From: Nostoc sp. UHCC 0926
GTDB lineage: Bacteria; Cyanobacteriota; Cyanobacteriia; Cyanobacteriales; Nostocaceae
DNA: 64,000 nt
NCBI RefSeq assembly: GCF_028623165.1
Contig: NZ_CP117768.1
Coordinates: 5,212,001-5,276,000, forward strand
Direction: 5' to 3'
Below are positions 2,599 to 56,760 of the stretch, in pieces. Position numbers and translations under genes: made by a program. The number at the start of each line of letters is the position of its first letter. Positions within the stretch are counted from its first letter, which is position 1. Under the pieces are notes generated by a model that searched no databases, was not told the DNA's origin, and saw only the letters and a program-made list of their open reading frames with translations.

Positions 2599-2825
2599 TA
2601 CGCAAAAGTTAGTTTTGGAGTCACATTTGTTGCTTTTGCAACTCCAAAAGTTAGTTTTAAAGTCACATTTGTTGCTTTTGCGACTCCAAAAGTTAGTTTT
2701 AAAGTCACATTTGTTGCTTTTGCGACTCCAATAGTTAGTTTTGGAGTCGCATTTGTTACTTTTGCGACTCCAAAAGTTAGTTTTAAAGTCACATTTGTTA
2801 CTTTTGCGACTCCAAAAGTTAGTTC
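2599..2825. repeat. Tandem array 1: 42-bp unit made of two 21-bp halves
   Basis: About 5.4 copies of a 42-bp unit; copies of ACTCCAAAAGTTAG or its variant start at 2641, 2683, 2725, 2767 and 2809, exactly 42 bp apart. Each unit splits into two related 21-mers, one starting ACTCCAAAAGTT and the other GTCACATTTGTTG. Because 42 is divisible by three, the reverse strand stays open for 96 codons with a 14-residue repeat, but there is no recognisable domain or RBS and I treat it as non-coding. It fills most of the gap between the aminotransferase promoter side and the DUF1003 gene. Confidence 0.85.
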
Positions 2826-3004
2826 AGCAGTAGCCAGAAGACCATAAATAAACTCCAAAAACCTTGTTTGATTCAGTAGCAATAGCAATCTACCAAAATC
2901 TATCTGTGGGTACTTTCATGCATTTTTGCTACCTTCAAGTATCGCCTTGCAGTCAAAATTGAAGTTAGTCAGTTGAAGGAATCATTCATAACGCTAGACT
3001 ACCA

Positions 3005-3622
3005 ATGCAAACCAACAATCAACCAAATCCAAGTGATTCATCGCAAGCATCGCAAAAAATTCTGCCCACTGCCCCATTACCAGAATCTATTAGTCAAAAT
3101 ATCGAGACTATCATCGCATTGCACAGACGTTCTGAAAAAAATGTCCCACAACACCAGCGCTTTGTAGAAACGATAACCATCTTTTTTGGTCGTCCTGTAT
3201 TCCTGTATAGCATTCTGCTTGCGATTATTCTCTGGGTAATACCCAATGCCTTACCACGACGTTTAGGTGTACCTAGATTTGAGGAAGTTCCATTTCCTTG
3301 GTTACAATTTTCACTGACTGCGGGTTCATTGTTGGTGACAACAGGAGTATTGATTAAACAGGAGCGACAAGAAAAGTTAGCAGAGCAACGGGCGCAACTT
3401 AGCCTTCAACTCAACCTGCTCTCTGAGCAGAAAATCGCTAAACTCATCGCTTTGATTGAGGAATTACGCCAAGATATTCCCAATGTCAAAAATCGCTCTG
3501 ACCCGGAGGCTGAAATAATGAAGTCCCCTACTGATGCACATGCAATTGTAGACTTATTGGAAGAAACCTTAGCATCAGAGTTAGCAAATTTATCGCCGCA
3601 AGAAATATCAACTCAGGAGTAA
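3005..3622 (+). CDS. DUF1003 membrane protein
   Basis: 205 residues. After a polar N-terminus (about 60 residues) come two hydrophobic segments, FLYSILLAIILWVI (about residues 66-80) and LQFSLTAGSLLVTTGVLI (about 99-117). A basic/acidic amphipathic helix follows (QERQEKLAEQRAQLSLQLN, with EQK later). This two-helix plus coiled-coil layout is typical of DUF1003, whose function is unknown; a role in membrane-associated signalling or ion handling is speculation. The gene stands alone between repeat-filled spacers, with array 1 upstream and MITEs downstream. The start ATG at 3005 is chosen because the overlapping frame at 2973 is short and domain-free. Confidence 0.8.
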   Translation: MQTNNQPNPSDSSQASQKILPTAPLPESISQNIETIIALHRRSEKNVPQHQRFVETITIFFGRPVFLYSILLAIILWVIPNALPRRLGVPRFEEVPFPWLQFSLTAGSLLVTTGVLIKQERQEKLAEQRAQLSLQLNLLSEQKIAKLIALIEELRQDIPNVKNRSDPEAEIMKSPTDAHAIVDLLEETLASELANLSPQEISTQE

Positions 3623-3647
3623 CAAAGTAAGCGTAGTCAGGACTTAC

Positions 3648-3720
3648 GCAACTGTCACAAGCGATGGCGCGGTGTAGATGCGCCGCGCGCCAAACAACTA
3701 AGCGAGAAACATGGGAATAG
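3648..3720. repeat. Repeat fragment sharing the GGACTTACGCAACTG motif
   Basis: The stretch AGGACTTACGCAACTG followed by CACAAGC recurs at 5480-5503, and its first 12 bases match the terminal repeat of the MITE at 3772-3884. It then runs into a GC-rich palindrome (GCGCGGTG...GCGCCGCGCGCC). It looks like a solo end or decayed copy of that MITE family. Confidence 0.5.
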
Positions 3721-3771
3721 CCGGACGTTTTAGTTGCTGAACTAAATAATTTGATAACAATCTATGCTTAA

Positions 3772-3884
3772 TAGGACTTACGCACACTCTACGATTCTTG
3801 GCGTCCTTGGCGTCTTCTCTGCGAGACGCTGCGCGATGGCGGTTCGATAAATTAAACTTTTTGGCGATTTTTGCGTAAGTCCTA
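3772..3884. mobile_element. MITE-like element family B, 113 bp with 13-bp TIRs and 5-bp target duplication
   Basis: The element starts TAGGACTTACGCA and ends with its exact complement TGCGTAAGTCCTA. It is flanked on both sides by CTTAA, a perfect 5-bp duplication as expected of a transposed element. The interior has no coding capacity and contains the Nostoc-type GC repeat GAGACGCTGCGCGATGGCGG. A recent insertion is inferred from the perfect ends and duplication. Confidence 0.8.
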
Positions 3885-3902
3885 CTTAATTTAATATAGG
3901 AC

Positions 3903-4080
3903 TGATATTTGATTTTTGAAATATACGTAGGGTGTGTTATGCCAAAGGCTAACGCACCACCTCTGATTCTAGGTGCGTTACGCTACGCGATAACACAACG
4001 CCAGTCCGCTCAAGTCGGGAAACCCGCCCAGACGGCTGGCTCCCCTACATATACTTAGATTTTTTCAAAAATCAAATCGG
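3903..4080. repeat. Inverted-repeat element enclosing a GTGTTAT/GCACC palindrome
   Basis: The two ends are inverted copies: ATTTGATTTTTGAAATATA followed by CGTAGGG on the left, and CCCCTACATATAC then TTTTTTCAAAAATCAAATC on the right. Inside, GTGTTATGCC...GCTAACGCACC pairs with GGTGCGTTACGC...GATAACAC (3934-3996). The inner palindrome family occurs again at 42071-42147. No coding potential is seen. It fills most of the space before the M20 gene terminator side. Confidence 0.65.
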
Positions 4081-4182
4081 ATTGCTATAGATTGTTTGAC
4101 CAGTTTAATAAGCTAAATCTTTGAGCCGAAGCCAGACTAAACAATTGTAGTTATTAAAAACAGCTAATTTACACCCATTCAA

Positions 4183-5400
4183 TTAATTTAAAAAGTTCTC
4201 CACGCATCTGACAAATATTTCCACACCCATTCCCAACGCCGTTTCATCAAAATCAAAGCGGGGATGATGATGAGGATAGGCCAAGTCTTTCTTAGGGTTA
4301 GCAGAACCTAAGAAGAAATAGCAACCAGGAACCTCTTGCAAGAAGAATGACATATCTTCAGCAGCCATAGTTTGACATTCTGGCACAATACCCATCGGGG
4401 TTTCTACCACTTCTTCTGCTACAGTTCGCACCAATTCTGCCATCTTAATATCATTAATTACTGGTGGATAAAGTGACCAGTATTCTAAGTCATAACTCGC
4501 ACCATGACTTTGACAAATTCCAGCAATAATCTGCTCGACACGCTGGTTGAAAAAGCCTTTCAAACTAGGATTAAAATACCTGACAGTGGCACTCATTCTC
4601 GCTGTATCAGCAATCACATTCCGCTTGGTTCCAGCATGAAGTTCGCCTACTGTCACCACAGCCGAATCAATGGGATTAACATTCCGAGCGACAATGGTTT
4701 GCAAAGCATTCACAATTTGAGCAGCAACTACAACAGAGTCAACAGTTTGATGGGGTAGTGCGCCGTGTCCACCTTTGCCCAAAATTGTGCAGTTAAAGCA
4801 CTCCACAGCTGCCATCAACGCCCCAGCCCGCACACCCACTGTTCCCAACGACAAATTATTCCATAAGTGCAAACCAATAATTGCGTCAACATCAGGATTT
4901 TTCAGGACTCCAGCTTCAATCATCGGCTTTGCGCCTCCTGGTGATTCTTCCGCTGGCTGGAAGATAATTTTCACGGTACCGGAGAAATCTTGGCGATGCT
5001 GTTGGAGATAGTAAGCTGTACCTAAAGCGATCGCTGTATGTCCATCATGTCCACAAGCGTGCATCACTCCATCATGCTGCGATTTATACGGCACTTCGTT
5101 GAGTTCTTGGATTGGCAAAGCATCCATATCTGCCCGAATCGCTAAAACTTTTTCTGTGCCTAATTTGTTACCCTTAATGGTGGCAACAATGCCAGTGTGA
5201 GCAATGCCAGTTTGATGCTCAATCCCCCATTCTTGTAACTTTTGTGATACAAACTCGGCGGTCAGTTTTTCTTGAAAACCTAACTCTGGTTGTTGATGCA
5301 ATCGCCGCCGCCACTCTATCAATTGTGGTTGCAATGAGCGGATTGAAAGTCGGATGCGAGATAGGTCAATAGAAGAGGGATTGGGAAAGGTAGAAACCAT
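4183..5400 (-). CDS. M20 family metal-dependent amidohydrolase
   Basis: 405 residues. Features of the M20D/hippurate hydrolase branch are visible: LAIRADMDALPI, the metal-binding CGHDGHTAIALGTAYYL, IIFQPAEESPGGAKPMIEAG with the catalytic Glu pair, IGLHLWNN, and a C-terminal HHHPRFDFDE with the last His ligand. A dimerisation insert (about residues 195-310) separates the halves of the catalytic domain. The enzyme removes an acyl group from an amide-linked amino acid or related small molecule in the cytoplasm. Substrate (N-acyl amino acid, hippurate or indole-acetyl amino acid) cannot be read from sequence. It is a single gene between repeat-rich spacers. Confidence 0.88.
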   Translation of the reverse strand: MVSTFPNPSSIDLSRIRLSIRSLQPQLIEWRRRLHQQPELGFQEKLTAEFVSQKLQEWGIEHQTGIAHTGIVATIKGNKLGTEKVLAIRADMDALPIQELNEVPYKSQHDGVMHACGHDGHTAIALGTAYYLQQHRQDFSGTVKIIFQPAEESPGGAKPMIEAGVLKNPDVDAIIGLHLWNNLSLGTVGVRAGALMAAVECFNCTILGKGGHGALPHQTVDSVVVAAQIVNALQTIVARNVNPIDSAVVTVGELHAGTKRNVIADTARMSATVRYFNPSLKGFFNQRVEQIIAGICQSHGASYDLEYWSLYPPVINDIKMAELVRTVAEEVVETPMGIVPECQTMAAEDMSFFLQEVPGCYFFLGSANPKKDLAYPHHHPRFDFDETALGMGVEIFVRCVENFLN

Positions 5401-5561
5401 TATGAAGACAAGCTAGTTTAAGTACAGCTAACTTAGTTTATCGTAGGGAATGGCGAAGAATCATCATCAGAATCTTCTTCAGGACTTACGCAACTGGCAC
5501 AAGCAATGGCTAACCTCAACAAGTCCCCAAATTGCTACAAAAGCGGAAATTCTGGCGGAGA

Positions 5562-5657
5562 TTACAGCAGAATTAAAGTATTTGAACCACATCTGTCGTA
5601 GGGGCGCAAGGCCTTGCGCCCCTACCGCGTGGTCTATTTACCTGAAAATAGCTGTAA
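5562..5657 (+). mobile_element. MITE-like element family A, copy 2 (96 bp)
   Basis: Near-identical to the copies at 37566 and 60463; the only visible difference from the 37566 copy is A for C in AGAATTAAAG. Ends are TTACAGC and GCTGTAA. It interrupts a short open stretch (5450-5755) that has no family resemblance. The surrounding gap 5401-5955 holds this element, the AGGACTTACGCAACTG fragment and a hairpin, and no gene I can support. Confidence 0.8.
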
Positions 5658-5757
5658 GAGTGTGGAGTTCTACAGCACCTGCCAAAATCACGGCTGGTAA
5701 GCCCAACAAAAAAGAAAATCGGGCAGATGTCTCCCGTTCCATGCCCAAAAATTAAAT

Positions 5758-5778
5758 AAGGCAGGTAAATCCTGCCTT
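5758..5778. terminator. Hairpin downstream of bioD, candidate terminator
   Basis: AAGGCAGG and CCTGCCTT form a perfect 8-bp stem with a 5-base loop. There is no strong T run on either side, so an intrinsic terminator is only a possibility. It lies about 180 bp past the bioD stop on the bioD strand. Confidence 0.4.
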
Positions 5779-5955
5779 GTGTGTCACTAAAGTTAGGTTA
5801 ATTTGATCTTTTCTTACAATTGCACGTCTTATTGACAAAGCTATTACCGAGTTATGTCAGAACTGTGACTGCATCAGTTGTAAACAGGGATTGAACGTTC
5901 ACTACGATCAGTTACTCAAGTCTTTTTTTCCAATACCCAATCCCCAATGCCCTAT

Positions 5956-6645
5956 TTAAAGTGTCAGTGTTTCCCAATCTAAATCTGATGCTACTTGAGC
6001 AAGTTTATCTAAATCAGTCAAGTTATCTAAATAGGGCAAGCAGCCTAAAACTGGGGTGTTAGTGAGTGATTGAATCAATTGGTGTGGTGTCCAGTCGGCT
6101 ATTTCTGCATCTGTTCGAGGTTGTACGCAGTTTAGAACAATGCCTTTGAGATTGATGCGCGATTGTCTAGCTAATGCTACGTTTGCCACTGCTTGAGCGA
6201 TCGCACCCAATCTAACTGGCACTACCAATACCGTTGGTAAACGCCATTCCCCCGCCAAATCAGCTACCGTTAATTCCTCCGTTACTGGCGAACCTAACCC
6301 TCCTAAGGCTTCTACAAGCACAAAATCACGATGCGATCGCAATTTAGATAAAGCTTGCCACACAAGTGCTAAATCTACTCGGCGATTTTCCCGTGCTGCT
6401 GCTATAGGAGGGGCTAAAGGTGCTTGAAAGTACAAAGGTGTAATTTCTTCAGCAGATTGTTCTAGTACAAATAGCTTTTGATACCACTCGCGATCGCCAA
6501 TTCCCGATTGAATCGGTTTCATGATTCCCCAGCTACGCTGCGGGTAATATTTTTGCCAATAGGCTGCTAATGCTGTTGTTAAAACAGTTTTACCAGCTTC
6601 TGTATCAGTTCCAGTAATCAGTAGTGTGTTTAACATTAATTTCAT
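5956..6645 (-). CDS. bioD: Dethiobiotin synthetase
   Basis: 229 residues. The N-terminal [20 protein letters not shown] is the BioD variant of the P-loop (GTDTxxGKT), followed by GIMKPIQSG, which carries the conserved Lys contacting diaminopelargonate. [15 protein letters not shown] is the second nucleotide-site motif. The enzyme closes the ureido ring of dethiobiotin using ATP and CO2, the penultimate step of biotin synthesis. The start at 6645 overlaps the stop of the kinase gene as ATGA, which favours this start over the ATG at 6636 and implies translational coupling. The pairing of a biotin gene with a Ser/Thr kinase is unexpected and may be simple co-transcription. Confidence 0.93.
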
Positions 6646-8402
6646 TGGCCAGAAAATGGTTGTGTTCCATCAGCCGGCGGTAAAGTTGGGGTTTCACCAG
6701 TTGTAGGAATTGGGTTAGGTGTTTGTGTCGGAATTGGCAGGGGTGTCTCTGTCGGAAATGGCAGGGGTGTTTGTGTTGGAATTGGCAAGGGTGTTTCTGT
6801 CGGAAATGGCAGGGGTGTTTGTGTGGGAAATGGCAGGGGTGTCTCTGTCGGAATTGGCAGGGGTGTTTCTGTCGGAATTGGCAGAGGTGTCTCTGTAGGT
6901 ATTGGTTTGACTGGTTTTTCTAATGCAACATTGAGGTTGTAATTGCTTTCGGCAACTCCTGAAAGCAGTGTTAACTCAATAGTATATCTACCAGTAACCA
7001 GCAATGTACCTGCATAAGATGTTACTTGCTGGATATTCGGATCAATTGGTTGTTGATTGGGACTGAAGACTGTTAGCAAAACGCTGCTTCCTGGGTCAAG
7101 AAACGCAGTTAACTTGTCACCTTCCTGCCCAAAAAAAGTGTAGCGGATTATTTGATTTGTTTTGAGAGTATCTTTAACCGTGGCTGTGTTATTTGCTTCC
7201 AGATTGAGCCGCCTACTAGATACAACAGGTTGATCGTTGGTGGGTGTGGATGTGAATGTAGTACCACCAGTAATCACTGGTGAAGGGAAATTTTGTGGAA
7301 GTGTCTCACTTGGTGATGGTTTTGACTGACTGCGGATGGAACTTACCAATGCCCAAGAACCAAATCCGGCGATGATCACTACAGCAATGGCAATTGCTGC
7401 GATCGCTAACGGATTATCCAAGATTGAGCTAGTATTACTTGGTGGAATCACAGGATCGGGTTGTTTCTTCTTGGGCGAAGCTGCTGGTGGTACTAAGTTA
7501 GGCCGGCGACCAACAGCCATTGTTTGCAAGTTCGATACATTATTAGGGGTAGGGACACTGGGTTGAGCCAGAGATTGCAGTGCTTGGGATACATTAGCAG
7601 CACTTTGGTAGCGATCGCTCGGTATATGATTCAACATTCGATTCAAAACCTGAGCAAATCGCGGATTCACTCTTACCCACCGCTGCCAATTCCAAGTTAG
7701 TTGGTTTTCGTCAAATAGATCCCTTGGTTCTTTACCAGTCAGCAAAACAATCGCACTCACCGCTAATGCATACAAGTCACTACTAGGATAAGCGCCCCCT
7801 GTTTGCATTTGTTCACTAGGAGAGTAGCCTAATTTTCCCACAGTGGTTTCTGGCATTGGGCTATTTGGCGATCGTAAACGCTCTGCCAGTTCCTTTACCA
7901 CCCCAAAGTCAATTAACACAGGTTTAGCGTCACTATCTCGCAAAATAATATTTTCTGGCGAGATATCTCGGTGAATAATCCCTCGACTGTGAATATGCTC
8001 TAAAACAGGCAACAATAACTGTATTAGCTGCAATACTTCAGCCTCTGTAAAGGTTTTACCCACAGCTTGACGTTCAGCCAGCAGAGTTCGGTACGTCTGA
8101 CCTGCAACGTAGTCCTCCACCAAAAATAAGCGTTGGTCTTGCTCAAATCTTTCCCGGAATTTAGGCACTTGTGGGTGTTCGATTTGATATAAAATGGCAG
8201 CTTCTCGGTGAAAAAGCTCTTGTGCCTTCTTCCAAGCCAAAGCCTCCGTTGCTGTTGAAATCAATTCCTTGATCGCGCAAAGTTCGTTAAAGCGCCTCTG
8301 GTCTTCTGCCAGATAGGTTCTACCAAATCCTCCTTGTCCGAGAATTTGAATTATGCGGTAACGGTTTTGCAAGACAGTGCCAACTTTAATCGGTGGTTGC
8401 AT
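6642..8402 (-). CDS. Membrane-anchored Ser/Thr protein kinase with Pro-Thr repeat tail
   Basis: 586 residues from the ATG at 8402; an ATG at 8450 adds 16 residues but gives no better RBS. Kinase motifs (counted from 8450): GQGGFGRTY loop, AIKE with Lys61, HRDISPEN with Asp162, DFG at 181-183, and GYSPSEQ in the activation segment, as in the cyanobacterial Pkn family. A hydrophobic segment ([16 protein letters not shown]) follows a Pro-rich linker, then a beta-rich domain that resembles a prepeptidase C-terminal type fold. The tail has an 8-residue repeat P-[I/F]-P-T-[E/Q]-T-P-L, probably exposed or cell-wall facing. It presumably phosphorylates cytoplasmic proteins in response to an outside signal. 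Confidence 0.9.
6711..6905 (-). repeat. Coding 24-bp tandem repeats (Pro-Thr tail)
   Basis: About eight 24-bp units on the coding strand encode P-[I/F]-P-T-[E/Q]-T-P-L. Units differ mainly at the I/F and E/Q positions. Such slipped-strand repeats are likely to vary in number between strains. Confidence 0.8.
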
Positions 8403-9222
8403 GATCGATTGATTGAGTGTATTAGCAACTGAGGAGGAAGTCACCCACAAAGATTAAGTCCAAGAGGCGACACAGTCACATGCAGCGATATTTTACCTTA
8501 CATAATAGTTAGGAGTATACGCAAAGTCACACTTCAAGTGTCTTATGCAACTCTCTTAACTGTCTACAGTAATTTATGTATGGGGTCTTTTCCCCTGCCC
8601 CCTGCCCCTTTTCTTCTTCTCTGACCGCTTGGAACTGCTGTCAGCCCTGCGCCAGAACCCACGCAAATGAGAGTTTGTTAATACCAATTCTATGTGAGCC
8701 TACATAAGACTTATCCCTTTATCTAGCAAGGATTTCAGAAAAAATTGGTATAAGTACCAATGTGATCCGGGAATTTATTGGGTTAATTAAAACTAAAAAT
8801 TAAGTCTGCTAGTTTATTTCTTTACCGCTAGTATCATAGAATATAATCAGATACCTGTTTAACACTTAGTCGCAAGTGTTCTCCTGTCTAAAAACAAAGT
8901 TAAATATTACCCAAGTTGTAAATGCTTTACTGTCAGTTATAAATGAGATAGTTAAAAGAAGCAATCTATCACACCAATCTTTAGAGAGATTAGGGTCATT
9001 TACCTCAACCTAAAAAACTTGAAGTATAGACCTAGTGGACGGACTTGATATCCGTTAAACTATCAATAGTTTGTTTGCCAAGAAAATTAGACAGTTAGCA
9101 AATGATAATTGTATGGAAAAATGTTTAAATATTGATTGTATGAAATCTTCAACAAAACTCACAGATGTTTTTTTAGGCGATTTCCTGATTAAATCTATTA
9201 AATCTTTAATGATAATATTGCT
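8403..9222. other. Long spacer upstream of kinase and prs, no gene
   Basis: This divergent spacer holds the promoters of the kinase (leftward) and prs (rightward). It contains an inverted repeat with arms ATACCAATT (8681-8689) and AATTGGTAT (8743-8751), a motif dispersed in Nostoc intergenic DNA, and a C/T-rich run near 8590-8620. I see no tRNA, small RNA or supported ORF. Confidence 0.6.
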
Positions 9223-10239: not shown

Positions 10240-10277
10240 CCGATAAAAGACTGTCATTCGTCTTATAGACATAAATT

Positions 10278-10427: not shown

Positions 10428-10706
10428 CTTAGTACAGTTTTGCGTAAAAGCGTAGCGTTTTTAATGCATCGGGATGCATTGGCATTGCAGGGGGACACAT
10501 TAACATTGCATCGGGATGCATTGGCATTGCAGAAGGACACATTAACATTGCATCGGGATGCATTGGCATTGCAGGGGGACACATTAACATTGCAGCCGAT
10601 GCATTGGCATTGTATCGGGACACATTAACATTGCATCGGGATGCATTGGCATTGCCAGGTATTGCCAAATTTAATTCGCTACTAATTAATGAAATGCTGT
10701 ACTTAG
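10428..10706. repeat. Tandem array 2: 21-bp repeats bounded by inverted CTTAGTACAG motifs
   Basis: Units containing GCATCGGGATGCATTGG start at 10466, 10508 and 10550 (42-bp steps), then near 10592 and 10633. Each 42 bp is two related 21-mers, the second starting GCAGGGGGACACATT. The array is bounded by CTTAGTACAG at 10428-10437 and its near-complement CTGTACTTAG at 10697-10706. The right motif spans the stop codon of the hybrid kinase. Its complement is the same sequence family as array 3 at 18734-18920, including about 40 bp of non-repeat flank, so this is a dispersed element. Confidence 0.85.
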
Positions 10707-18695: not shown

Positions 18696-18733
18696 GATGG
18701 GATGTTTTTTTAACTGGAAGTCCCTAATCCGTT

Positions 18734-18920
18734 GCAATGCCAATGTATACCGATGCATTGTGAATGCGTCCCGATACAACGCCAATGCATGCCGATACAA
18801 TGTTAATGCGTTCCTCTGCATTGTGAATGCATTCCGATGCAATGCCAATGCATCCCGATGCAATGTTAATGCGTTCCTCTGCATTAAAAACACTACGCTT
18901 TTACACAAGACTGTACTTAG
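18734..18920. repeat. Tandem array 3: seven 21-bp repeats with conserved flank
   Basis: Seven consecutive 21-bp units start at 18734, 18755, 18776, 18797, 18818, 18839 and 18860, with consensus RCAATGYYAATGCRTYCC plus three bases. They are followed by GCATTAAAAACACTACGC and, after 12 bases, CTGTACTTAG (18911-18920). The complement of array 2 (10428-10706) has the same unit and flank. The array ends 24 bp before the CysQ-like start codon, so it occupies that gene's 5' region. Confidence 0.88.
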
Positions 18921-43145: not shown

Positions 43146-44588
43146 ATGCTTAACGATCCCCATATATCTCTCTCACTAACAGACGATGAAGTATTCGTGT
43201 TTGAAGATGATGAAGAGCCGATAAGTAATAAAACTCAATTAACTCCGTTGCAGGTAGTCCCTCAGGCACAAGAGACTTCTGAAGGGTGGAAAATGATGAT
43301 TGTGGACGATGATTTTGAAGTCCACCAGGCGACTAAGCTAGCTTTGAGAAGTTTTACCTTTGAAGACAAACCTTTAACTTTCCTCTCTGCTTTTTCGGAA
43401 ACAGAAGCCAAAAAGCTGATTGCAGTCCACCCAGATACCGCATTTATTTTATTAGATGTGGTTATGGAAACCAATGATGCTGGGTTAAGGGTAATTCAGT
43501 ACATTCGGGAGGAGTTGAAAAATCAGATTGTGCGGGTGATTTTATGCACAGGACAACCAGGAGATGCGCCAGAGGAATGGGTGATTTTGAACTATGACAT
43601 CAATGATTATAAGCTGAAGGTTGAACTGACTCGCCAAAAGTTAATTACAAGTGCGATCGCTGCTTTAAGGTCATACCGCGATTTAATCACCATAGAACAA
43701 CAAACAGCACAATTAGCTCAAGCATTGCACGACCTGCAACAGATACAATACAGTATCGTGCAAAAGGAAAAAATGTCGGCACTGGGTAATCTCGTTACAG
43801 CTATTGCCCACGAGATTAATAACCCGATTAACTTTATTGCAGGCAATATGAAACCTGCTCAAGAATATATTCACGACTTGTTGGCACTAATCGACCTTTA
43901 TCGGCAAACCTTTCCTGATCCGGGAGCAGAAATTGAGGAAGCGATCGCCACAATCGATTTAGACTATCTCCAAGAAGATTTGCCTAAACTCATTTCTTCC
44001 CTAAAAGAAGGTAGCGATCGCATCCGTGGTATTAGCGCCAGTCTTCGCACCTTCTCCAGGGGAGACAGCGATTGCAAAGTTCCTTTTAATATTCATGATG
44101 GCATTGAAAGTACATTACTCATCCTGAAGCACCGATTAAAAGCCCATGAGCATCATCCTGCTATTGATATAGTCAAAGATTACGGGGAAATACCTCAATT
44201 AGAATGCTTCCCTGGACAACTCAACCAAGTGTTTATGAATCTCATCGCCAACGCCATTGATGCTTTGGAAGAATCTAACAAGGAGCGTAGTTTACAACAA
44301 ATCACAGACAATCCCAATCGGATCACAATTGTCACCACACTATCTGAAGATCGGCATCATGTCTTGATCCGAATTCAAGACAATGGCATGGGAATGTCCG
44401 AAAATGTCAAGCAAAAACTGTTTGGTTACTTATTCACCACCAAGGGAGTAGGGAAAGGTACAGGTTTGGGATTAACGATTTCCCGCCAGATTGTGGAAGA
44501 AAAACATGGTGGACAACTCACAGTGACATCGGAATTAGGCAAAGGCACAGAATTAGCGATCGCCATTCCAGTGGCAAGACGCGATTAA
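43146..44588 (+). CDS. Receiver-containing histidine kinase
   Basis: 480 residues from the ATG at 43146; a TTG two codons earlier is less likely. A REC-like domain (MMIVDDDFEVHQATKLALR, FILLDVVME with Asp104) is followed by a coiled coil, a HisKA-like helix (GNLVTAIAHEINNPINFIAG, His222) and an HATPase domain (DNGMGM, GKGTGLGLTISRQIV). It sits 35 bp after the collapsed relic, which in intact homologues carries related kinase parts; a functional link is not shown. Its last codons and stop lie in a REP-like palindrome (44578-44595). It may be an orphan two-component protein. Confidence 0.9.
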   Translation: MLNDPHISLSLTDDEVFVFEDDEEPISNKTQLTPLQVVPQAQETSEGWKMMIVDDDFEVHQATKLALRSFTFEDKPLTFLSAFSETEAKKLIAVHPDTAFILLDVVMETNDAGLRVIQYIREELKNQIVRVILCTGQPGDAPEEWVILNYDINDYKLKVELTRQKLITSAIAALRSYRDLITIEQQTAQLAQALHDLQQIQYSIVQKEKMSALGNLVTAIAHEINNPINFIAGNMKPAQEYIHDLLALIDLYRQTFPDPGAEIEEAIATIDLDYLQEDLPKLISSLKEGSDRIRGISASLRTFSRGDSDCKVPFNIHDGIESTLLILKHRLKAHEHHPAIDIVKDYGEIPQLECFPGQLNQVFMNLIANAIDALEESNKERSLQQITDNPNRITIVTTLSEDRHHVLIRIQDNGMGMSENVKQKLFGYLFTTKGVGKGTGLGLTISRQIVEEKHGGQLTVTSELGKGTELAIAIPVARRD

Positions 44589-44650
44589 TCGCGTCTGTAC
44601 AGGAGTTAGGAGTTAGAGACGCGATTAATCGCGTACAGGAGTTAGGAGTG
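44578..44650 (+). repeat. Tandem pair of REP-like palindromes
   Basis: GACGCGATTAATCGCGTC (44578-44595) with the tail TGTACAGGAGTTAGG is repeated from 44616, the second copy slightly shorter. The first copy supplies the last codons and TAA of the kinase gene (VARRD then stop). Followed near 44690 by another GC repeat (GCGCAGTCGTTGGCGCAGCC). Confidence 0.75.
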
Positions 44651-45055: not shown

Positions 45056-45087
45056 GAGTCCTAAGTGTTGTTAGCGGATAGCTATGG

Positions 45088-48405: not shown

Positions 48406-48410
48406 AGTAA

Positions 48411-48995: not shown

Positions 48996-49129
48996 AAGTA
49001 GTTCATACTGCACTTAGTATTGTTGCAGCCGTGACTAATACTTTTGTACTGTTGAATAAGATGAATCGGGCAATTCTACAGGAGATTGTAATTCTGAATT
49101 ACTCATCTCATTACCCCCTTACAAATTAA

Positions 49130-50227
49130 TCACGATGCTGACTCCTCTGTTAACAATTCTGATGCGACTTCACTCTTAACTACATCCTCAGAATCACCAG
49201 ATTTAGAAAAACCATCTGCTACATCTTTGATAAAACCAGCCACAGGTACCGCGACTAATAAACCCAAAACTCCGCCAAAATTGGTTCCTACAAGCAAAGC
49301 AATTAACACCCATATTGGTCTAATACCAGTAAATTTGCCTAAAAGACGTGGTGCGATCGCCTGATCAATTAACTGGTCAATGACAACAGCTACCGCAGCA
49401 ATCTTCACTGCTAGCCAAAAGTCGTGTGTGGCTATTATTAAAGTTATTACAACAAGACTGAGGACATCACCAAAGGGAATTAAGCTCAAAACCCCAACTG
49501 CCAAACCAAAGAGTAAACCAAACTGGACTTGAAAACTTAAAAATAATAATGTTATTGAAACTCCCATCAGTAAAGCCAAACTTCCCTGACCAATCAAGTA
49601 ATTTTGGAAGTTTTGCTGAATAGACTGGCTTATCTCCTGGGCAAAATTTCCAGGTAACTTCTTAAATATTCCCTGCCAAATTCTTGGCCCATCTAACAAC
49701 AGATAAAAAGTCACAACTACTGTGATTAATGACTCAGAAACACTATCGATAGTATCTATAATAATGCTTAAAAGTTTATCTGAGAAAAACTCTAACTCAT
49801 TGGGCAATTTGTTGGTTATTTGTGTTAATAACTGACTTAAATTCACATTTAATTTGTGTCTAGAAAACCAATCATTTACAATCTGAAGTTTTTCTTCGCT
49901 AGAATCAATCCATTGGGGAAGGACTTTAACCATCTCATGAAATTGATCTAAAACAATGGGAACCAAAGTGATACCCAGAGCAACGACAATTAACAATGCT
50001 AATATAAAAACTAATGCTACTGCATAGCTGCGTTTAACTCCCCGCTGTTGGAGAACCGAAACAGGATAGTTCAAAACGAATGCAAGCAAAGTAGCCAAGA
50101 CAAGAATTGTGACGACAGGTTGAAAATTTTTAACAAGCAAAAATGCTAGCCAACCATTGAGAAAGACTAGAGGAAATAGCAGCGTAAAAATTAACCATTT
50201 AAGTAGTTGATTGAGTGAAAAATTCAT
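49130..50227 (-). CDS. AI-2E/PerM family transporter
   Basis: 365 residues from the ATG at 50227; the frame extends to a TTG at 50245. Eight hydrophobic segments and family motifs: YPVSVLQQRGVKRSYAV, LLLDGPRIWQGIFKKLPG, IGQGSLALLMGVSITLLFL, GLLFGLAVGVLSLIPFGD and QAIAPRLLGKFTGIRPIWVL. Family members transport small molecules such as autoinducer-2 or ions; the substrate is not known here. Transcribed leftward and alone, after the IS relic. Confidence 0.88.
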   Translation of the reverse strand: MNFSLNQLLKWLIFTLLFPLVFLNGWLAFLLVKNFQPVVTILVLATLLAFVLNYPVSVLQQRGVKRSYAVALVFILALLIVVALGITLVPIVLDQFHEMVKVLPQWIDSSEEKLQIVNDWFSRHKLNVNLSQLLTQITNKLPNELEFFSDKLLSIIIDTIDSVSESLITVVVTFYLLLDGPRIWQGIFKKLPGNFAQEISQSIQQNFQNYLIGQGSLALLMGVSITLLFLSFQVQFGLLFGLAVGVLSLIPFGDVLSLVVITLIIATHDFWLAVKIAAVAVVIDQLIDQAIAPRLLGKFTGIRPIWVLIALLVGTNFGGVLGLLVAVPVAGFIKDVADGFSKSGDSEDVVKSEVASELLTEESAS

Positions 50228-50346
50228 AATCAATTTAAAAATCAAAATTATTCTAGTTACTAGATTGAAGCTGAAAATTAAATATGCTCAAGGGGAAGTA
50301 GATGAGAAAAATCTTTCCCCATTCACAATTTTCGGTTATTTGAGGA

Positions 50347-51780
50347 CTAAATTTCAGCAAAAGCTAAAAATTGCTCCTCATTTATCCGCCCTGCTTGATA
50401 CAGAGTATTAGTAATTTCAGAAATAGTTAAAACCGCATGACCACGATAACCATTTTGCTGTAACTTATCTTTCACCCCTTGTTCATGGTCGATAAATACC
50501 ACAATGTCATTAACATTTAATCCTGCTGATTCCAACTTTTCTGCTCCTTCCATGACACTTTTACCGCTGATGAGAATATCGTCAACCACCACAACTGTTT
50601 CACCAGGATGAAAGTTACCCTCAATTACTCTCCGAGTTCCGTGGGCCTTCACCTCTTTACGGGGGAAAATCATCGGACAATTAAGACGCAAAGATAAACC
50701 AGTAGCAGTAGGTAAAGAACCATAGGGAATACCTGCTAATCTATCAAAATTCAGGTTTTTCAAAATATCTTCATAGGCAGTGATAACTTGATTAAAAACT
50801 TGGGGATTGGAAATAATTTTGCGTAAGTCAATGTAATAAGGAAATATAGCTCCTGATGCTTGGACAAAGCTGCCAAACATAATGCAGTCAATATCATAAA
50901 GTTGTAAAATCAAATCCTGTTGGGGATGCTGATTTAGCAAACAAACATCAGGAAACCACACAGAACAAGTGGAATTTTCATAAATAATTTCAGTTTTTAT
51001 TTGATTAATTTCTGCGCGTAAAGACTGGATTTCCTGAGATAATTTTGGTTTTCCCAACATATCTTGAGGAACAGGAATTAGCAAACCATCACCGTTAGTA
51101 TTCAAGCCCGCTTCTAAAATTTGCTTCAGATTTAGTCCCTCCGCCCAGATGCTACGCGCCATAATAATTCGTTCCGGCGCGATCGCTCGAACAAGTGCTA
51201 AAACTTCAGGTTTTGTAGTTCCCACTTCTAAACCCAATTGTTCTGGAGTTCCCCAGGTTTTTGATTCTTTTACCACCTGTAAATAAAGCGGTGATTCGTT
51301 TGTAGGATATTGCTGTATAGCTTCTGCGCTTGGATTAGAAGTACAGCATAAAATAAACACAGCTTTATCAGGATATACCAAAAAAGGTGCTACATGATCT
51401 TGTCCTGTATAGGGACTAAGAGTAATTGCATCTACCTGCCATTCTGCAAACACAGTTTGGGCAAAGATGGTACTAGTATTTAAGTCACTGTGTTTGGCAT
51501 CTAAAATAACTGGGATGTGAGCCGGAATAGCTGCTAAAGTTTTGTACAACAGTTCTAAACCGGGAATACCTAATGCTTCGTAAAAGCCAAGTGTCGGTTT
51601 ATAGGCACAAACGAAATCAGAAGTTTCAGCAATAATGAATTGTAACCACTTCTGTAAACCAGCGATGAGTTCTTCAGATTCATAATGCACAGGCATCATC
51701 TCTGGATTTGGATCAAGTCCTACAAACAGTAAGCTTTGATTTTGCAAGATATTACGATTCAATTTATCAAAAAAGTTCAT
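50347..51780 (-). CDS. pyrF-pyrE: Bifunctional OMP decarboxylase / orotate phosphoribosyltransferase
   Basis: 477 residues. Domain 1 (about 1-275) is orotidine 5'-phosphate decarboxylase: FVGLDPNPEMMP, AYKPTLGFYEALG and the catalytic DAKHSDLN at 94-101. Domain 2 (about 300-477) is orotate phosphoribosyltransferase with the PRPP loop VVVVDDILISGKSV and RKEVKAHGTRR. Together they catalyse the last two steps of UMP synthesis. The order, decarboxylase then transferase, is opposite to animal UMP synthase. Both active sites look intact. It stands alone, with a 120 bp gap to the AI-2E gene. Confidence 0.93.
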   Translation of the reverse strand: MNFFDKLNRNILQNQSLLFVGLDPNPEMMPVHYESEELIAGLQKWLQFIIAETSDFVCAYKPTLGFYEALGIPGLELLYKTLAAIPAHIPVILDAKHSDLNTSTIFAQTVFAEWQVDAITLSPYTGQDHVAPFLVYPDKAVFILCCTSNPSAEAIQQYPTNESPLYLQVVKESKTWGTPEQLGLEVGTTKPEVLALVRAIAPERIIMARSIWAEGLNLKQILEAGLNTNGDGLLIPVPQDMLGKPKLSQEIQSLRAEINQIKTEIIYENSTCSVWFPDVCLLNQHPQQDLILQLYDIDCIMFGSFVQASGAIFPYYIDLRKIISNPQVFNQVITAYEDILKNLNFDRLAGIPYGSLPTATGLSLRLNCPMIFPRKEVKAHGTRRVIEGNFHPGETVVVVDDILISGKSVMEGAEKLESAGLNVNDIVVFIDHEQGVKDKLQQNGYRGHAVLTISEITNTLYQAGRINEEQFLAFAEI

Positions 51781-51850
51781 ATTTTTTGTTTAAAAAAGAG
51801 TTATTAGTTATTAGTCTTTGCGTCTTTGTATCTCACTTACCATAATTCCT

Positions 51851-52528
51851 TTACAAAAACATCGATTCTGTTAGTTGAGTGCCTCCAGCCTTACGTCCTA
51901 ATAGAGAGTGAATCACTCCAAATAGAATAACCATCGGTACTGAGCTAAAGTGGACAATTCGCAATGCTTGCCAACTGCCAAACAGATCCACAATCCAGGG
52001 AAATTGAGCAGGTTTATACATTCCTATTCCTGTAAATAACGCCAGCAGCAAGATAGGAATAATTGCTGTATAGGCAATACGATGCCAAGCATAAATTAGG
52101 CGCTGGGAATTTTTACTTTTTTGTAATGCTTTGAAGTCATTGGCACTTACAAACCGATGTCGCCAGCGTCGGGTAATTAAAACGTAAATTCCATACCATA
52201 GGAGATTCAGGGAGAATAGCCACATTGCTGCAAAATGCCAGTGTCTACCTCCTGCAAGCCAACCTCCTAAAGTAAATATCGGAGGAATGTGCAAACCTGT
52301 ACGTCCACCAAAAACAGGGTTGGCGTTGTAAATTTGTAGTCCACTGGTGAGCATGATAAACAGACTAATGATGTTACAGGAGTGGAAAATTTTGGCTCCT
52401 ATTGCTTGAGTGGGTGGCTTTCGAGTTTGAGAGGAAACAGTCGAATTCATAGATTTTGACCGATAAAATTTGGTGTTTATCTGTCTTGGGTGAATGGCCC
52501 AGCTAGTTTGGGGGTGGGCATTACTCAC
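51851..52528 (-). CDS. Cytochrome b/b6-domain membrane protein
   Basis: 225 residues with a GTG start at 52528 (GGGGA about 7 bp upstream); an internal ATG at 52450 would give 199 residues and also fits. Four hydrophobic spans (HSCNIISLFIMLTSGLQIY, WHFAAMWLFSLNLLWYGIYV, AYTAIIPILLLALFTGIGMY and IVHFSSVPMVILFGVIHSLL) carry His residues in positions expected for two b haems. It resembles the b-type cytochrome subunit of Ni/Fe-hydrogenase or formate dehydrogenase families. It may pass electrons between the quinone pool and a partner not encoded here. Confidence 0.8.
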   Translation of the reverse strand: MSNAHPQTSWAIHPRQINTKFYRSKSMNSTVSSQTRKPPTQAIGAKIFHSCNIISLFIMLTSGLQIYNANPVFGGRTGLHIPPIFTLGGWLAGGRHWHFAAMWLFSLNLLWYGIYVLITRRWRHRFVSANDFKALQKSKNSQRLIYAWHRIAYTAIIPILLLALFTGIGMYKPAQFPWIVDLFGSWQALRIVHFSSVPMVILFGVIHSLLGRKAGGTQLTESMFL

Positions 52529-52951
52529 TTTTATTTCCCCATCCTATGATTCAGTATTCTGATATTGATGGTCTACCATCTTCTGTTTTAAATGTCAGTT
52601 TTAGATATGGTTAGGGTTTTTCTAAGAGGATGTCTGAAAAAAAGATATTTTATCCAGTGTATCCCTAACGGTGATCAACTAATTAGACTGATATGAAGGA
52701 AACTTAGTCATTATCTACGCTCATCAATGGCTGAAGCGTTTTTCGTCGGATCAACCATTGCAGCAGTATACACTGATAATTAGTGCGATGCCTATGGCGG
52801 GCTATGCCTATGCGGTGATTATGGTAAAAAGTATACTGATGACTTGTGCTGTAATTTAAGTGTGAAAAAGACAAGACCAAATTTATCGAACTCAGGTATT
52901 GTTAATGCATCGGCTTGCAAAAATTAACACCTAGTGCCCAAGGTTAATTAG
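52529..52951. other. Spacer with one dispersed repeat
   Basis: A variant of the GCGATGCCTATGGCGGGCTA repeat (52789-52820) is present, related to 21350, 34624 and 61547. No gene or RNA is seen. Confidence 0.55.
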
Positions 52952-54502
52952 TTAAAAGCTGGCGTGTTTTCTAATAGCGGCATAGTGTCTTGCTGTGGTA
53001 TTCATCTCAATGACCAACTCTGTGCCTTGACCTAATTGAGAATTACACTTAAGTTTACCTTGATGTTTTTCAACTATAATTTCCCGACTAATTGATAGTC
53101 CCAGTCCCTTCCCTTTACCGATTGGTTTGGTTGTGAAAAATGGTTCAAATATCTGTCTTTGGATATGGGGAAGTATGCCTTTACCATTATCAGAAATGCG
53201 AATGATAACTTTGTGTTTTTTTCCTAGTCGTTTGTCATTTACCCAAAGTTCATTACTATTTACTAATGATAAATGACTACTAATAATTTCTGTATGAATA
53301 AAAAGAGTGGGAGTAAAGGAATAATCATGTTTTATCCTTTCTTCTAAGGCATCAATGGCGTTAGTCAAGATGTTCATGAATACCTGATTTAGATCACCAG
53401 GGTAACACTCGATTAAGGGCAATTCCCCAAAGTTTTTAATTACTTCAATCCTTGGTCTTTCAGGCTGTTCTTTCAGACGATGTTGCAAAATCCTCAGAAC
53501 ACTATCAAGTCCTTCATGCAAGTCAACCTTTTTCATTTGACCTTCGTCAGAGGTTGAAAAATTCCGCAAGGCGAAAACAATTTCTTTGACGCGCTCAGAT
53601 CCGGCTCGCATTGACCACAGCAATTTCAAAAAGTCTGTCTTCACAAAACCAAGGTCGAGGCGTTGCAAATGTAAGGCTATGACTGGGGTCGGTGTGGGAT
53701 AGTAATGTTGGTAAAGTTCAATGACTCTGATTAAGTCTTCAGCATATTGACTCGCAGGATGGAGATTGCCGTAGATGAAGCTAACGGGGTTGTTAATTTC
53801 GTTAGCCATATCCGCCACCAGTTGACCGAGGTTAGCCATTTTCTGGTTCTGCAATAACTGCTTTTGGGTATATTTGAGTTCTTCGAGGGTAGTTTCTAGC
53901 TGCTGTGATTTTTCCCTAACTTGGTCTTCGCTAGACTGGTGTTGGACAATTTCTCTTTGGAGTTGTTCAAATAGTTGATATTGTTGAGTAGCGATCGCCT
54001 TATCCTGACTAATATCCTTGTGCGTCCCCGCCATCCGCACTGGTTTACCGAATTCATCCCACTGAAATACTTTCCCACAAGCCAGAATCCACTTCCACTC
54101 GCCGGATTTAGTCAACATTCTGAATTCGACTTCAAATACGGGTATGCATCCTTCGAGATAATCGTGCAATACCTGATGAATTCTTGGTAAATCCTGTGGA
54201 TGTACAAGTTGCTCAAAGGATTTATGGTCGTGATCGATTTCGTCTACTTCATACCCCAGAATGCGCTTCCACCGGGGATCATAATAGGTTTTATTGGTGA
54301 TCAGATTCCAATCCCACAATCCCAAGCCATTGGCTATTAATGCCATTTGTAAGGCGGCTTGTGAGCATTGACAAGGATCTAAATTTTCTTGAGATAAGTC
54401 TTTTTGTCCTTTTTGCAGTGGCTGTGATTCTGGGAAACTCTGGGAATCTTCTACTGAAAGTGGAGCTTCCGGTTCATGGGTAGTGGGTTCTTGGATATGC
54501 AT
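52952..54502 (-). CDS. PAS-domain histidine kinase lacking the phosphoacceptor His
   Basis: 516 residues. PAS/PAC about residues 50-170 (NGLGLWDWNLITNKTYYDPR, RMLTKSGEWKWILACGKV), a coiled coil to 220, then the HisKA-like helix NLGQLVADMANEINNPVSF, where Asn234 stands where kinases have His. The paralogue at 43146 reads AIAHEINNP at the same place. The ATPase domain is intact (NQVFMNILTNAIDALEE, DNGKGI, GKGKGLGLSISREII). So ATP may be bound but autophosphorylation at this site is not expected. It may act as a partner, phosphatase or signal integrator. Confidence 0.9.
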   Translation of the reverse strand: MHIQEPTTHEPEAPLSVEDSQSFPESQPLQKGQKDLSQENLDPCQCSQAALQMALIANGLGLWDWNLITNKTYYDPRWKRILGYEVDEIDHDHKSFEQLVHPQDLPRIHQVLHDYLEGCIPVFEVEFRMLTKSGEWKWILACGKVFQWDEFGKPVRMAGTHKDISQDKAIATQQYQLFEQLQREIVQHQSSEDQVREKSQQLETTLEELKYTQKQLLQNQKMANLGQLVADMANEINNPVSFIYGNLHPASQYAEDLIRVIELYQHYYPTPTPVIALHLQRLDLGFVKTDFLKLLWSMRAGSERVKEIVFALRNFSTSDEGQMKKVDLHEGLDSVLRILQHRLKEQPERPRIEVIKNFGELPLIECYPGDLNQVFMNILTNAIDALEERIKHDYSFTPTLFIHTEIISSHLSLVNSNELWVNDKRLGKKHKVIIRISDNGKGILPHIQRQIFEPFFTTKPIGKGKGLGLSISREIIVEKHQGKLKCNSQLGQGTELVIEMNTTARHYAAIRKHASF

Positions 54503-55081
54503 AGCTGCTGGTACGATGAGGAAGATATCCTGTAGCTCTCTCTACGCTGTCTTAGCACCCTGACGATCCAGTTATGGACAAATCGTCTACTTGGTTGATT
54601 AGGCTGTAACTTAGGTCAGAGATGTATCAGCGCATATCATCAATTTGGATGGAATTTAGAAAAAGGTAAACAGACGAATGTAACCTCTGTTGCGATCGCC
54701 GTGGCCATTTTTTAGAAAAAATAGCTACATTGTGTGCATCTACATTCTAAGATATGTCTAAAAAAAGTAGTTCAAATCACATATAATCACCTAAAAACTC
54801 GAAAAATTTTGTAAAAAAAATTCTATGATTAAGTCATGTCAAATATTTCCGGATACAGAAAAATTCTCAAGCCTGGTTTGTAGCTTTTTTGGTAATACCG
54901 ATTACCTGTGAGGTTGCATAGAACAATTTGCTCAAGCCCCCTATGTCACCAAGCCTGATTTTGTGCAGTTTTACAAGTAATTCGTATAAAAAATAGCTGC
55001 TACTCACACAAAGTAGGCTACATTGAGTTCCAAAGAATAATCCTGTGAGAAAATGTCATGCTGAATTAGAGCCGATGAGTA
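54503..55081. other. Spacer between kinase and AAA-like gene
   Basis: A weak inverted repeat GGTAAT...ATTACC lies near 54890. AT-rich; no gene or RNA is seen. Confidence 0.5.
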
Positions 55082-56491
55082 ATGACTATAGATGAAGCAG
55101 TACTGCTGCTAAAAGCCAGTCAAGCAACCGGTTTAACAACGCTCCAAGAGATCGTATTACGTTCTTCCTGGGAAGGAAAAACCTATACCAATATAGCCAG
55201 TGAAGCTCACTACGGCGAGGAACGTGTCAGGAAAGTTGCTGCTCATTTATGGCAAGTACTGAGTGATTTTTGCAAAGAACCGATAAATCAATCCAACTTC
55301 CGCCAGACTCTAGAAAATCACCATCTTAGCAAAGCCCATCAGCAGTTAGTTAAAGAATTCAACAAAGCAGCTACGGCTATATCCTTAGAATTTCCTAGTG
55401 GGCCAGTATCTCTTAATTCCCGATTCTACATCCCTCGTTTGCCAATTGAGGAACTCGCCTACGCAGAAATGGCTGAACCTGGGAGTGTCGTTTGCATCAA
55501 AGCACCTAAAAAGATGGGGAAAAGCTCTCTAATTTTGCGGTTGCTTGCACGCGCTAACAATCAAGGTTTTCGCACCGTAACCTTGAACTTTCAGCAAGCA
55601 GATAAAGCAGTATTTGCCAGTTTGGATAAATTTTTGCGCTGGTTCTGTGCCAATGTCAGTCGGGAGTTACAGCTAGAACCAAAACTGAATGATTATTGGG
55701 ATGAAGATATGGGTAGCAAAGTGAGTTGCTCTATCTATTTCCAACAGTATTTACTCTCGGCGCTGGAAAGTCCCCTTGTGTTGGTATTGAATGATCTGGA
55801 TTGGGTGTTTGAATATCAGGAAATTGCTGGAGAATTACCATCACTGATCCGAACTTGGCATGAACAGGCCAAAGGCGTAGAAATTTGGCAAAAACTGCAC
55901 CTGGTTCTGGTTTACTCAACTGAAATACTTGTTTCCATAAAACTGACTCAATCGCCATTTAATATTGGTTTGCTAATAAATTTATCTCCCTTTACGAAAG
56001 AGCAAGTGCAGGATTTAGCACAACGTCACGGCTTGGATTGGACAGATGGTAAAAACGTCGAGAGTTTGATGTCAATGGTGGGAGGATATCCTTATTTAGT
56101 GCGATTGGCTTTTTATCACCTTGTGGGTAAAGGGGGACTAGAAGGGGATTTAGAACAGCTATTGCAACAAGCACCCACAGAAACAGGAATTTATCACGAG
56201 TATTTAAGGCAGTTTGTCTTAACACTACGAGATCAGCCAGATTTGGGAGATGCTTTTGATGAAGTAATTAATACTACAAATTATGTGAAATTAGAGCCAG
56301 CATTGGCATATAAATTACAGAGTATGGGGCTAATTAATTTAGAAGGCGATCGCAGTATTCCTGCGTGTGAATTATATCGTTTATATTTCCGACAATATTT
56401 GAAAACAAGTGCTCAAAATTCTGGTTGTAATTCAACAGCAACTTTTGACAGAAAGTTGAGAAGCGAAAAGGGAAATGATATACCAAAATGA
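55082..56491 (+). CDS. AAA-like protein with N-terminal vMAP-type HTH
   Basis: 469 residues. N-terminal about 70 residues (VLLLKASQATGLTTLQEIVL, GEERVRKVAAHLWQVLSDF) resemble the helix-turn-helix domain placed before vWA-MoxR associated proteins. Next is an AAA-like NTPase: RFYIPRLPIEE, Walker A IKAPKKMGKSSLILRLL at about 140-154 (Ala for the usual Gly), Walker B LVLVLNDLDWVF at about 231-243. The C-terminus is a winged-helix-like region. Such proteins are proposed to be sensors in conflict or signalling systems; the role here is inferred. No vWA or MoxR gene is in the window. Confidence 0.78.
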   Translation: MTIDEAVLLLKASQATGLTTLQEIVLRSSWEGKTYTNIASEAHYGEERVRKVAAHLWQVLSDFCKEPINQSNFRQTLENHHLSKAHQQLVKEFNKAATAISLEFPSGPVSLNSRFYIPRLPIEELAYAEMAEPGSVVCIKAPKKMGKSSLILRLLARANNQGFRTVTLNFQQADKAVFASLDKFLRWFCANVSRELQLEPKLNDYWDEDMGSKVSCSIYFQQYLLSALESPLVLVLNDLDWVFEYQEIAGELPSLIRTWHEQAKGVEIWQKLHLVLVYSTEILVSIKLTQSPFNIGLLINLSPFTKEQVQDLAQRHGLDWTDGKNVESLMSMVGGYPYLVRLAFYHLVGKGGLEGDLEQLLQQAPTETGIYHEYLRQFVLTLRDQPDLGDAFDEVINTTNYVKLEPALAYKLQSMGLINLEGDRSIPACELYRLYFRQYLKTSAQNSGCNSTATFDRKLRSEKGNDIPK

Positions 56492-56510
56492 ATGCGTGAA
56501 TTACTCAAAT

Positions 56511-56760
56511 GAGTAAGCAAAAGCTGCTTTTGAGAAAGTAAAAGCTGCTTTTGCTTGCGGAAAACACTAAAATGAGTAAGCAAAAGCTGCTTTTGAGAAA
56601 GTAAAAGCTGCTTTTGCTTGCGGAAAACACTAAAATGAGTAAGCAAAAGCTGCTTTTGAGAAAGTAAAAGCTGCTTTTGCTTGCGGAAAACACCAAAATG
56701 AGAAAGTAAAAGCTGCTTTTGAGAAAGCAAAAGCTCATTTTGAGTAAGTCAAATGGCATT
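56511..56760. repeat. Tandem array 4: 63-bp unit made of three 21-bp parts
   Basis: The motif GAGTAAGCAAAAGCTGC starts at 56511, 56574 and 56637, with the variant GAGAAAGTAAAAGC at 56700, each 63 bp apart. Within a unit the parts begin GAGTAAGCAAAAGC, GAGAAAGTAAAAGC and GCTTGCGGAAAACAC, each 21 bp. The rest of the spacer to 57002 holds only AT-rich DNA and one HIP1 octamer. Two reverse frames across the array are artefacts of a period divisible by three. Confidence 0.88.

Follow-up and report, generated by a model that had tools for sequence, protein, structure and literature searches.

Intergenic tandem arrays of many sequences share a 21-bp unit length in Nostoc sp. UHCC 0926

Four intergenic tandem arrays lie in a 64,000-bp stretch of the Nostoc sp. 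UHCC 0926 chromosome (positions 5212001-5276000 of contig NZ_CP117768.1; contig C3 of the 8.31-Mb genome G000), referred to here as the window, and all four have repeat periods of 21 bp or a multiple of it. They belong to a real class of minisatellites built on a 21-bp lattice, which is dense in certain Nostoc, less frequent in the remainder of the family and in part borne on mobile elements. A peak of unit length at 21 bp, a depletion of insertions and deletions (indels), a diversity of sequence groups, species differences by whole units and, in a mobile element that we call alpha, a ladder of lengths in steps of 10.5 or 21 bp were all observed directly. Unit spacing looks more constrained than the letters, and there is good support for a constraint on length. 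As the best single reading, which we advance tentatively, these are fast-turning minisatellites held to two helical turns, and we infer that selection acts on helical phase.

Unit length and its conservation

Arrays were surveyed in forty 20-kb samples of the same chromosome (800 kb), in a held-out set of fourteen 20-kb chromosomal samples and six 20-kb samples of contig C7, in 28 samples of 20 kb from four congeners and in 32 samples of the same size from eight genomes belonging to other genera. Non-coding arrays of ≥100 bp were counted when their best Tandem Repeats Finder (TRF) period was a multiple of 21 (21, 42, 63 or 84). Such periods account for 17 of 27 arrays in the 800-kb sample, 4/4 in the window and 8/12 in the held-out 280 kb. 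Neither 20 nor 22 was the best period of an array in any set sampled, and no best period within 15-30 other than 21 was present in the 800-kb sample, the window or the held-out set. The peak over 20 and 22 that an initial annotation of the window had named as the check to be made is therefore present. Two further arrays of this genome, both alpha, have periods of 41 and 62, and a proline-rich, borderline coding array with a 21-bp lag (L115:14501) has a best TRF period of 150 and was tallied as "other."

The window arrays themselves were described in that annotation as having periods of 21 bp or multiples, and all four do. Array 1 (2599-2824; TRF 2603-2824, period 42) has ~5.3 copies of a 42-bp unit and is flanked by divergent open reading frames (ORFs). 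Array 2 (10465-10655, plus strand) gave TRF periods of 21 and 42, array 3 (18729-18885, minus strand) gave rows at 21, 42 and 63, and array 4 (56503-56783) has 63-bp units with an additional row at 21. Identity at lag 21 is 0.48 to 0.62 in the four arrays, against means of 0.25 to 0.28 over lags, and identity at lags 7 and 14 does not exceed background; the 42- and 63-bp periods are thus 2 × 21 and 3 × 21.

For analyses of indels, reading frames, folding and symmetry, 33 arrays with periods that are multiples of 21 (41 and 62 included for alpha) were hand-picked from the TRF lists; two of them, L104 and L142, are coding or borderline according to the ORF filter. The 23 non-alpha arrays (277 units) contain a minimum of 263 substitutions but one inserted and one deleted base, and 21 of the 23 have no indel at all; the 10 alpha arrays (81 units) have a minimum of 130 substitutions and two deleted bases. 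Indel-to-substitution counts in controls were 13:92 for alpha ends and 4:37 for an orthologous flank, or one indel per 7 to 9 substitutions. Relative to these controls, indels in non-alpha arrays are depleted ~14- to 19-fold (Fisher P = 2.7e-6 and 0.003, respectively), a count in which indels at array ends are under-represented, since arrays end where the lattice breaks. The repetitive extragenic palindrome (REP)-like GACGCGAT arrays of the same samples vary in length, from 29 to 44 bp in this genome (13 rows) and from 28 to 39 bp in G006 (3 rows).

The main rival explanation, which we consider possible at a somewhat lower probability than phase, starts from one or a few ancestral minisatellites of 21 bp that mobile elements and recombination spread and that then diverged, their length being inherited because whole units are copied in unequal recombination and slippage, with no function involved. 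The small number of sequence groups at the deepest level favors such founders. Forty-two arrays fell into 11 groups at a threshold of 16/21 matches or 13 at 17/21, by a method in which chance best matches attain 15 in 4 of 600 cases and which left the two beta arrays unjoined; at the looser of these two thresholds, 33 of the 42 fall in three groups, so that independent origins may be fewer than groups. Array 1 grouped with L094, L110, L117 and L142. Alpha and a second element, beta, serve as vehicles, orthologous arrays vary by whole units, and the alpha-like arrays that share the 21-bp period in seven other genera hint at an old founder. Substituted units spread freely, however, and units of other lengths should then do so too, yet indels are depleted to the extent given above, and the REP-like arrays of the same genome vary in unit length.

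Arrays in mobile elements and at fixed loci

Arrays 2 and 3 lie in two oppositely oriented copies of alpha, a dispersed miniature inverted-repeat transposable element (MITE) of the IS630 type. The view in the initial annotation that the arrays are unrelated in sequence holds for array 1, arrays 2/3 and array 4, with arrays 2 and 3 being one family. Alpha is organized as a head, an array of 21-bp units and a tail whose end repeats the head imperfectly and in inverted orientation. Copy 1, on the plus strand, comprises the head with the left terminal inverted repeat (TIR; 10433-10468), array 2, and the tail with the right TIR (10653-10701), between a left CTTAG (10428-10432) and a right CTTAG (10702-10706) that may represent a target duplication; the limits first given for array 2 (10428-10706) are those of this complete element with its flanks. 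By eye, the half-units of array 2 read TGCATCGGGA / TGCATTGGCAT. Copy 2, on the minus strand, retains array 3 and a head/TIR (18882-18920, with flanking CTTAG at 18916-18920) and is truncated, its tail end being replaced by another repeat. Array 3 has no counterpart at its orthologous sites in G006, G059 and G069; the junction of array 3 is rearranged, which leaves the exact cut unreadable.

With 40 of 78 candidates scored, alpha has at least 47 matches in its own genome, some of them fragments of a single copy, and its TIR pattern has 74 matches there compared to 0 for a reversed control. Of 49 occurrences of a 25-base piece of the head in the genomes searched, 46 are in Nostoc and 3 in "Nostocales cyanobacterium LEGE 12452." On plasmid NZ_CP046705 of Nostoc sp. 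ATCC 53789 (L160), alpha-like TIRs bound a transposase that is annotated as IS630 and matches Pfam DDE_3 (E = 2.2e-17). The surroundings of three TIR matches in G058 and G046 were examined for an autonomous element bounded by this TIR, and no paired end was found. Most alpha copies have CTWAG on both sides. Both ends were located by a loose pattern in 22 of 30 copies (rows 16, 21, 24 and 25 match poorly), and the middle base of CTNAG is the same in 18 of the 20 copies having A/T on both sides (P = 0.0009); the stricter test for identical 5-mers gave 6/19 (P = 0.22). Duplication of TA, the usual target duplication of IS630 elements, was not seen at the alpha flanks.

Array 4 sits in the second dispersed element, beta (56474-56896, plus strand), which has 14 matches in the genome, pieces included; in G059, two matches cover the full 423 bp and define these limits. 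Array 1 is bound to its locus, with only distant relatives in its own genome and homologues in two congeners: 42-bp arrays of 6.5 copies in G069 and 4.0 copies in G063 (own, 5.3), without indels, each homogenized to its own distinct sequence. When its unit (2603-2824) is compared with that of G069 (L281:1511-1783), differences lie on both sides of a dyad, and some own units thereby form a perfect 10-bp inverted repeat (GACTCCAAAA...TTTTGGAGTC); by eye, this could be templated hairpin correction.

A query with an array of the group termed gamma matched 11/11 genomes of the genus searched, including G066 and G061, with matches that are partly flanking sequence. At L098, where a gamma array of 17 units stands, the right flank is retained in ten congeners. 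Read by eye, this site has one unit or a diverged unit in G063, G069 and G061, one complete and one partial unit in G062, two diverged units in G067, and two to three related units in G064, where the left flank is not conserved; no unit was seen beside the right flank in G060, G065, G066 and G068. Counts of 17 versus 1 to 2 between species therefore indicate that arrays change by whole units. The arrays vary among relatives as variable-number tandem repeat (VNTR) minisatellites do (17 versus 1 to 2 units for gamma; 5.3, 6.5 and 4.0 copies for array 1).

Array density is uneven within the genus. Multiples of 21 account for 4/5 non-coding arrays in G059, 4/8 in G006, 0/0 in G066 and 0/4 in G061; density is high in G000, G059 and G006 and zero in the G066 and G061 samples, for which 7.1 arrays would be expected at the density of G000 (280 kb together). 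The other genera (640 kb, eight genomes) gave 0/8, or 1/8 when an array of heptamers whose super-period is 21 bp is counted, versus 16.2 expected. Low density in a sample is not equal to absence. Nine alpha-matching loci in seven genera other than that of Nostoc (from G036, G004, G056, G015, G035, G003, G057, G038 and G052) all have periods of 21, 42 or 63 at 68 to 82% identity, the letters changed and the period unchanged, although loci picked by similarity to alpha do not provide independent evidence on period. Such arrays in other genera support helical phase and inherited founder length alike. The arrays thus extend beyond one clade (gamma-like in 11/11 genomes of the genus, alpha-like in seven other genera), though not demonstrably to the Nostocales as a whole. 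Within the genome of strain UHCC 0926, 120 kb sampled from the 1.04-Mb contig C7 (L320-L325) held no non-coding array of ≥100 bp of any period, where 3.0 arrays on the 21-bp lattice would be expected at chromosomal density; alpha copies do occur on C7.

Other repeats were observed alongside these arrays. At 5561-5658 of the window, a repeat of ~97 bp that contains a GGGGCGCAAGGCCTTGCGCCCC palindrome recurs at many places in G059 at 92 to 98% identity, and similar sequence lies within alpha copy L339 and adjoins array 3. Further dispersed repeats of ~100 to 135 bp at 3638-4097 have many matches in G059, G006 and G063, and a 24/48-bp tandem repeat (6718-6905) falls within a 602-amino-acid ORF (6642-8450, minus strand). 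Short tandem arrays of a REP-like GACGCGATTAATCGCGTC palindrome, with units of 28 to 44 bp, occur at 44577-44649 and at L080, L094, L096, L100, L108, L109, L119, L306, L309, L310, L315, L144, L147 and L223.

Helical phase as a proposed constraint, and alternative explanations

In the mechanism that we propose, the letters of a unit would mutate and homogenize within each array while its length remained 21 bp. The likeliest reason would be DNA geometry, as no unit shorter than 21 bp has a whole number both of bases and of helical turns (2 × 10.5): gain or loss of a unit would retain one face of the helix, and a 1-bp indel would rotate everything downstream. For alpha, the likely beneficiary would be pairing of both ends of a short IS630-type MITE; for locus-bound arrays, a protein or filament might bind once per two turns.

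The 21-mer of alpha is readable as a 10+11 pair, with half-unit similarity being significant in 4/10 alpha arrays. Short alpha relatives, two of them in the same genome, carry CGCAGAG-like modules, and of 16 such relatives two have module steps of 10, 11, 10, one has steps of 10, 12 and three have one step of 10, with none found in ten; L077, L078 and L334 have the same lengths as the modular relatives and no evident repeat. The TIR-to-TIR lengths of 72 distinct elements have a best period of 10.5 bp (R = 0.72) in a scan from 5 to 31.75, and 59 of the 72 fall no more than 1.5 bp from a single phase, selected post hoc, where 20.6 are expected. For the 16 elements of ≤135 bp, R is 0.86 at 10.5 bp. 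These elements come from fetched loci, are related by descent and were not randomly sampled, so that P values are not to be taken literally. In a second set, which overlaps the first and consists of 18 pairs hand-read among the matches listed for ten genomes, 11/11 elements of ≤135 bp are in phase.

The initial annotation had suggested that repeats spaced by two turns face the same side of the helix. The alpha half-units, the 10- and 11-bp modules and the length steps of ~10.5 bp are consistent with this suggestion; a number of other results weigh against it. Half-unit similarity is significant in just 2/23 non-alpha arrays. None of the 7 array-less elements of >135 bp in the second set lies within 1.5 bp of the phase, and a change in module number by itself yields a ladder of lengths. 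One alpha copy (L024) mixes 20- and 21-bp units by our reading, and the arrays with periods of 41 and 62 (L105 and L116) also depart from the lattice. Compensated one-base shifts, such as one in L098 that by eye leaves the unit at 21, were tallied as substitutions. Neither a shared motif nor a binding protein was found for the arrays. Finally, A/T content has no 10.5-bp component over the 33 arrays (300 of 500 shuffles reach the observed value), and intrinsic curvature through A/T tracts at that spacing was rejected for lack of a signal over the same set. Harmonics at 5.25 and 3.5 bp exceed all 500 shuffles and were given no weight because the set includes ten alpha arrays.

A more far-reaching version of the phase reading, which we think unlikely, is that Nostoc and its relatives possess a phase-locked DNA system in which an organizing protein or filament reads position once per two turns and not sequence, so that 21-bp arrays of any sequence would be kept and spread, and mobile elements would have adopted the lattice to hold their ends in phase.

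The length of 21 bp is also 3 × 7, and the arrays could in principle be matured forms of the cyanobacterial heptamer repeats named STRR (short tandemly repeated repetitive), an ancestry that we consider improbable. Structure at lags 7 and 14 is significant in 4/23 non-alpha arrays (L086, L098:2744, L106 and L223), which may belong to the STRR kind, and heptamer arrays with 21- or 28-bp super-periods occur in the other genera sampled. Such structure is lacking in 19/23 non-alpha and 10/10 alpha arrays, best periods of 14, 28 and 35 are absent among non-coding arrays of ≥100 bp in the genome, and the 10- and 11-bp modules of alpha speak against it. With only 4/23 non-alpha arrays fitting, heptamer origin was rejected as a general account.

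A hairpin or dyad function (cruciform, RNA structure or template for small RNAs) likewise has a low probability. Dyad symmetry is significant in 7/23 non-alpha arrays, and folding is slightly stable on average (mean z of −0.8; P = 0.004), both being real features without being general. The mean z for alpha was −0.1, several arrays (L098:14780, L117, L110 and L140) have no hairpin, and no match to Rfam at gathering thresholds was found in the window. Hairpins were rejected as a common feature, being heterogeneous among arrays.

The least probable of the alternatives, and a very improbable one, is that the arrays encode heptad repeats (7 amino acids × 3 nucleotides). Twenty-one is divisible by 3, 32/33 arrays have at least one open frame, and a few frames look synonymous (L105, 13/14; L098, 7/8; L094, 22/29; L117, 10/13), mostly through changes in the same column. 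Array 4 has no open frame, however, an in-frame upstream ATG precedes just 14/83 open frames, and the frame that seems synonymous in gamma arrays gives 2/38 for L141 and 6/36 for L088:14951. None of the 33 arrays lies inside a called ORF, which upholds the intergenic location first assigned to them, although ORF calling was crude and drops ORFs consisting largely of array. Arrays that were called coding have multiples of 21 in 3/12 cases in the same genome, 1/7 in the held-out chromosomal samples, 0/2 in those of C7, 0/1 in the window, 3/5 in G059, 1/13 in G006, 0/1 in G061 and 2/12 in the other genera, with none called in G066. Coding repeats were rejected on the absence from called ORFs, the scarcity of upstream ATGs and the lack of a consistent synonymous bias; open frames, offered initially as one reason for a 7 × 3 unit, are not supported as the cause of its length.

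Two further candidates were discarded. The 33 arrays lie between tandem (19), divergent (7) and convergent (7) genes, the intergenic gaps of >100 bp in the sample of this genome numbering 267, 109 and 87, respectively; a promoter or terminator role was rejected, there being no placement bias by gene orientation. The arrays are not CRISPR, as their units are contiguous and not separated by unique spacers.

Relation to known repeats and significance

Plasmid iterons and partition sites contain direct repeats about two helical turns apart that are helically phased. The arrays described here differ from iterons in that no cognate protein or replicon function was found and in their many sequence groups. 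Small dispersed repeats (SDR, 21 to 27 nt), reportedly described in Nostoc punctiforme by Elhai et al. in 2008, are alike in size and genus; SDR units are said to be dispersed singly, whereas 28/33 units here have no copy outside arrays in 864 kb of the genome at ≤3 mismatches, and for these 28 an origin as dispersed 21-nt units was rejected. The remaining units are that of L094, with 25 outside matches, and four gamma units with 1 to 3. The L094 unit (L094:17824-18178) includes GTAGCCCGCCGCAGGCATCGC, a common dispersed repeat (the 25 outside matches in 864 kb).

Heptamer repeats of cyanobacteria (PMC4679880) are likewise intergenic tandem repeats in Nostocaceae, from which the arrays differ by a 21-bp unit without heptamer substructure in 29/33. 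Alpha is close to the IS630-family insertion sequences and their MITEs, which among cyanobacteria include MITEs in Anabaena sp. 90 (PMC3542288). Its TIRs are like those around the IS630-annotated transposase of Nostoc sp. ATCC 53789, but it has an internal 21-bp array and flanks that agree as CTWAG 5-mers rather than as a TA duplication. The tandem repeats of archaeal Borgs (PMC9879509) resemble the arrays in being many, independent and fast evolving in one lineage and virtually absent from hosts; their intergenic units vary in length (14 to 38% divisible by three), and the available part of that paper describes no fixed period. No description of a 21-bp array class in Nostoc was recognized in the literature searched, which mostly excludes subscription journals and included the accessible parts of PMC4907049, PMC6344855, PMC9879509, PMC4679880, PMC5987646 and PMC3542288.

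Tandem arrays are usually classed by sequence, and here length is the conserved property. If the spacing is selected, the arrays would constitute a natural library of phased DNA, with many sequences and one geometry, and helical-phase selection in bacterial non-coding DNA would become testable. For alpha, it would likewise become testable whether very short transposable elements need both ends on one face of the helix.

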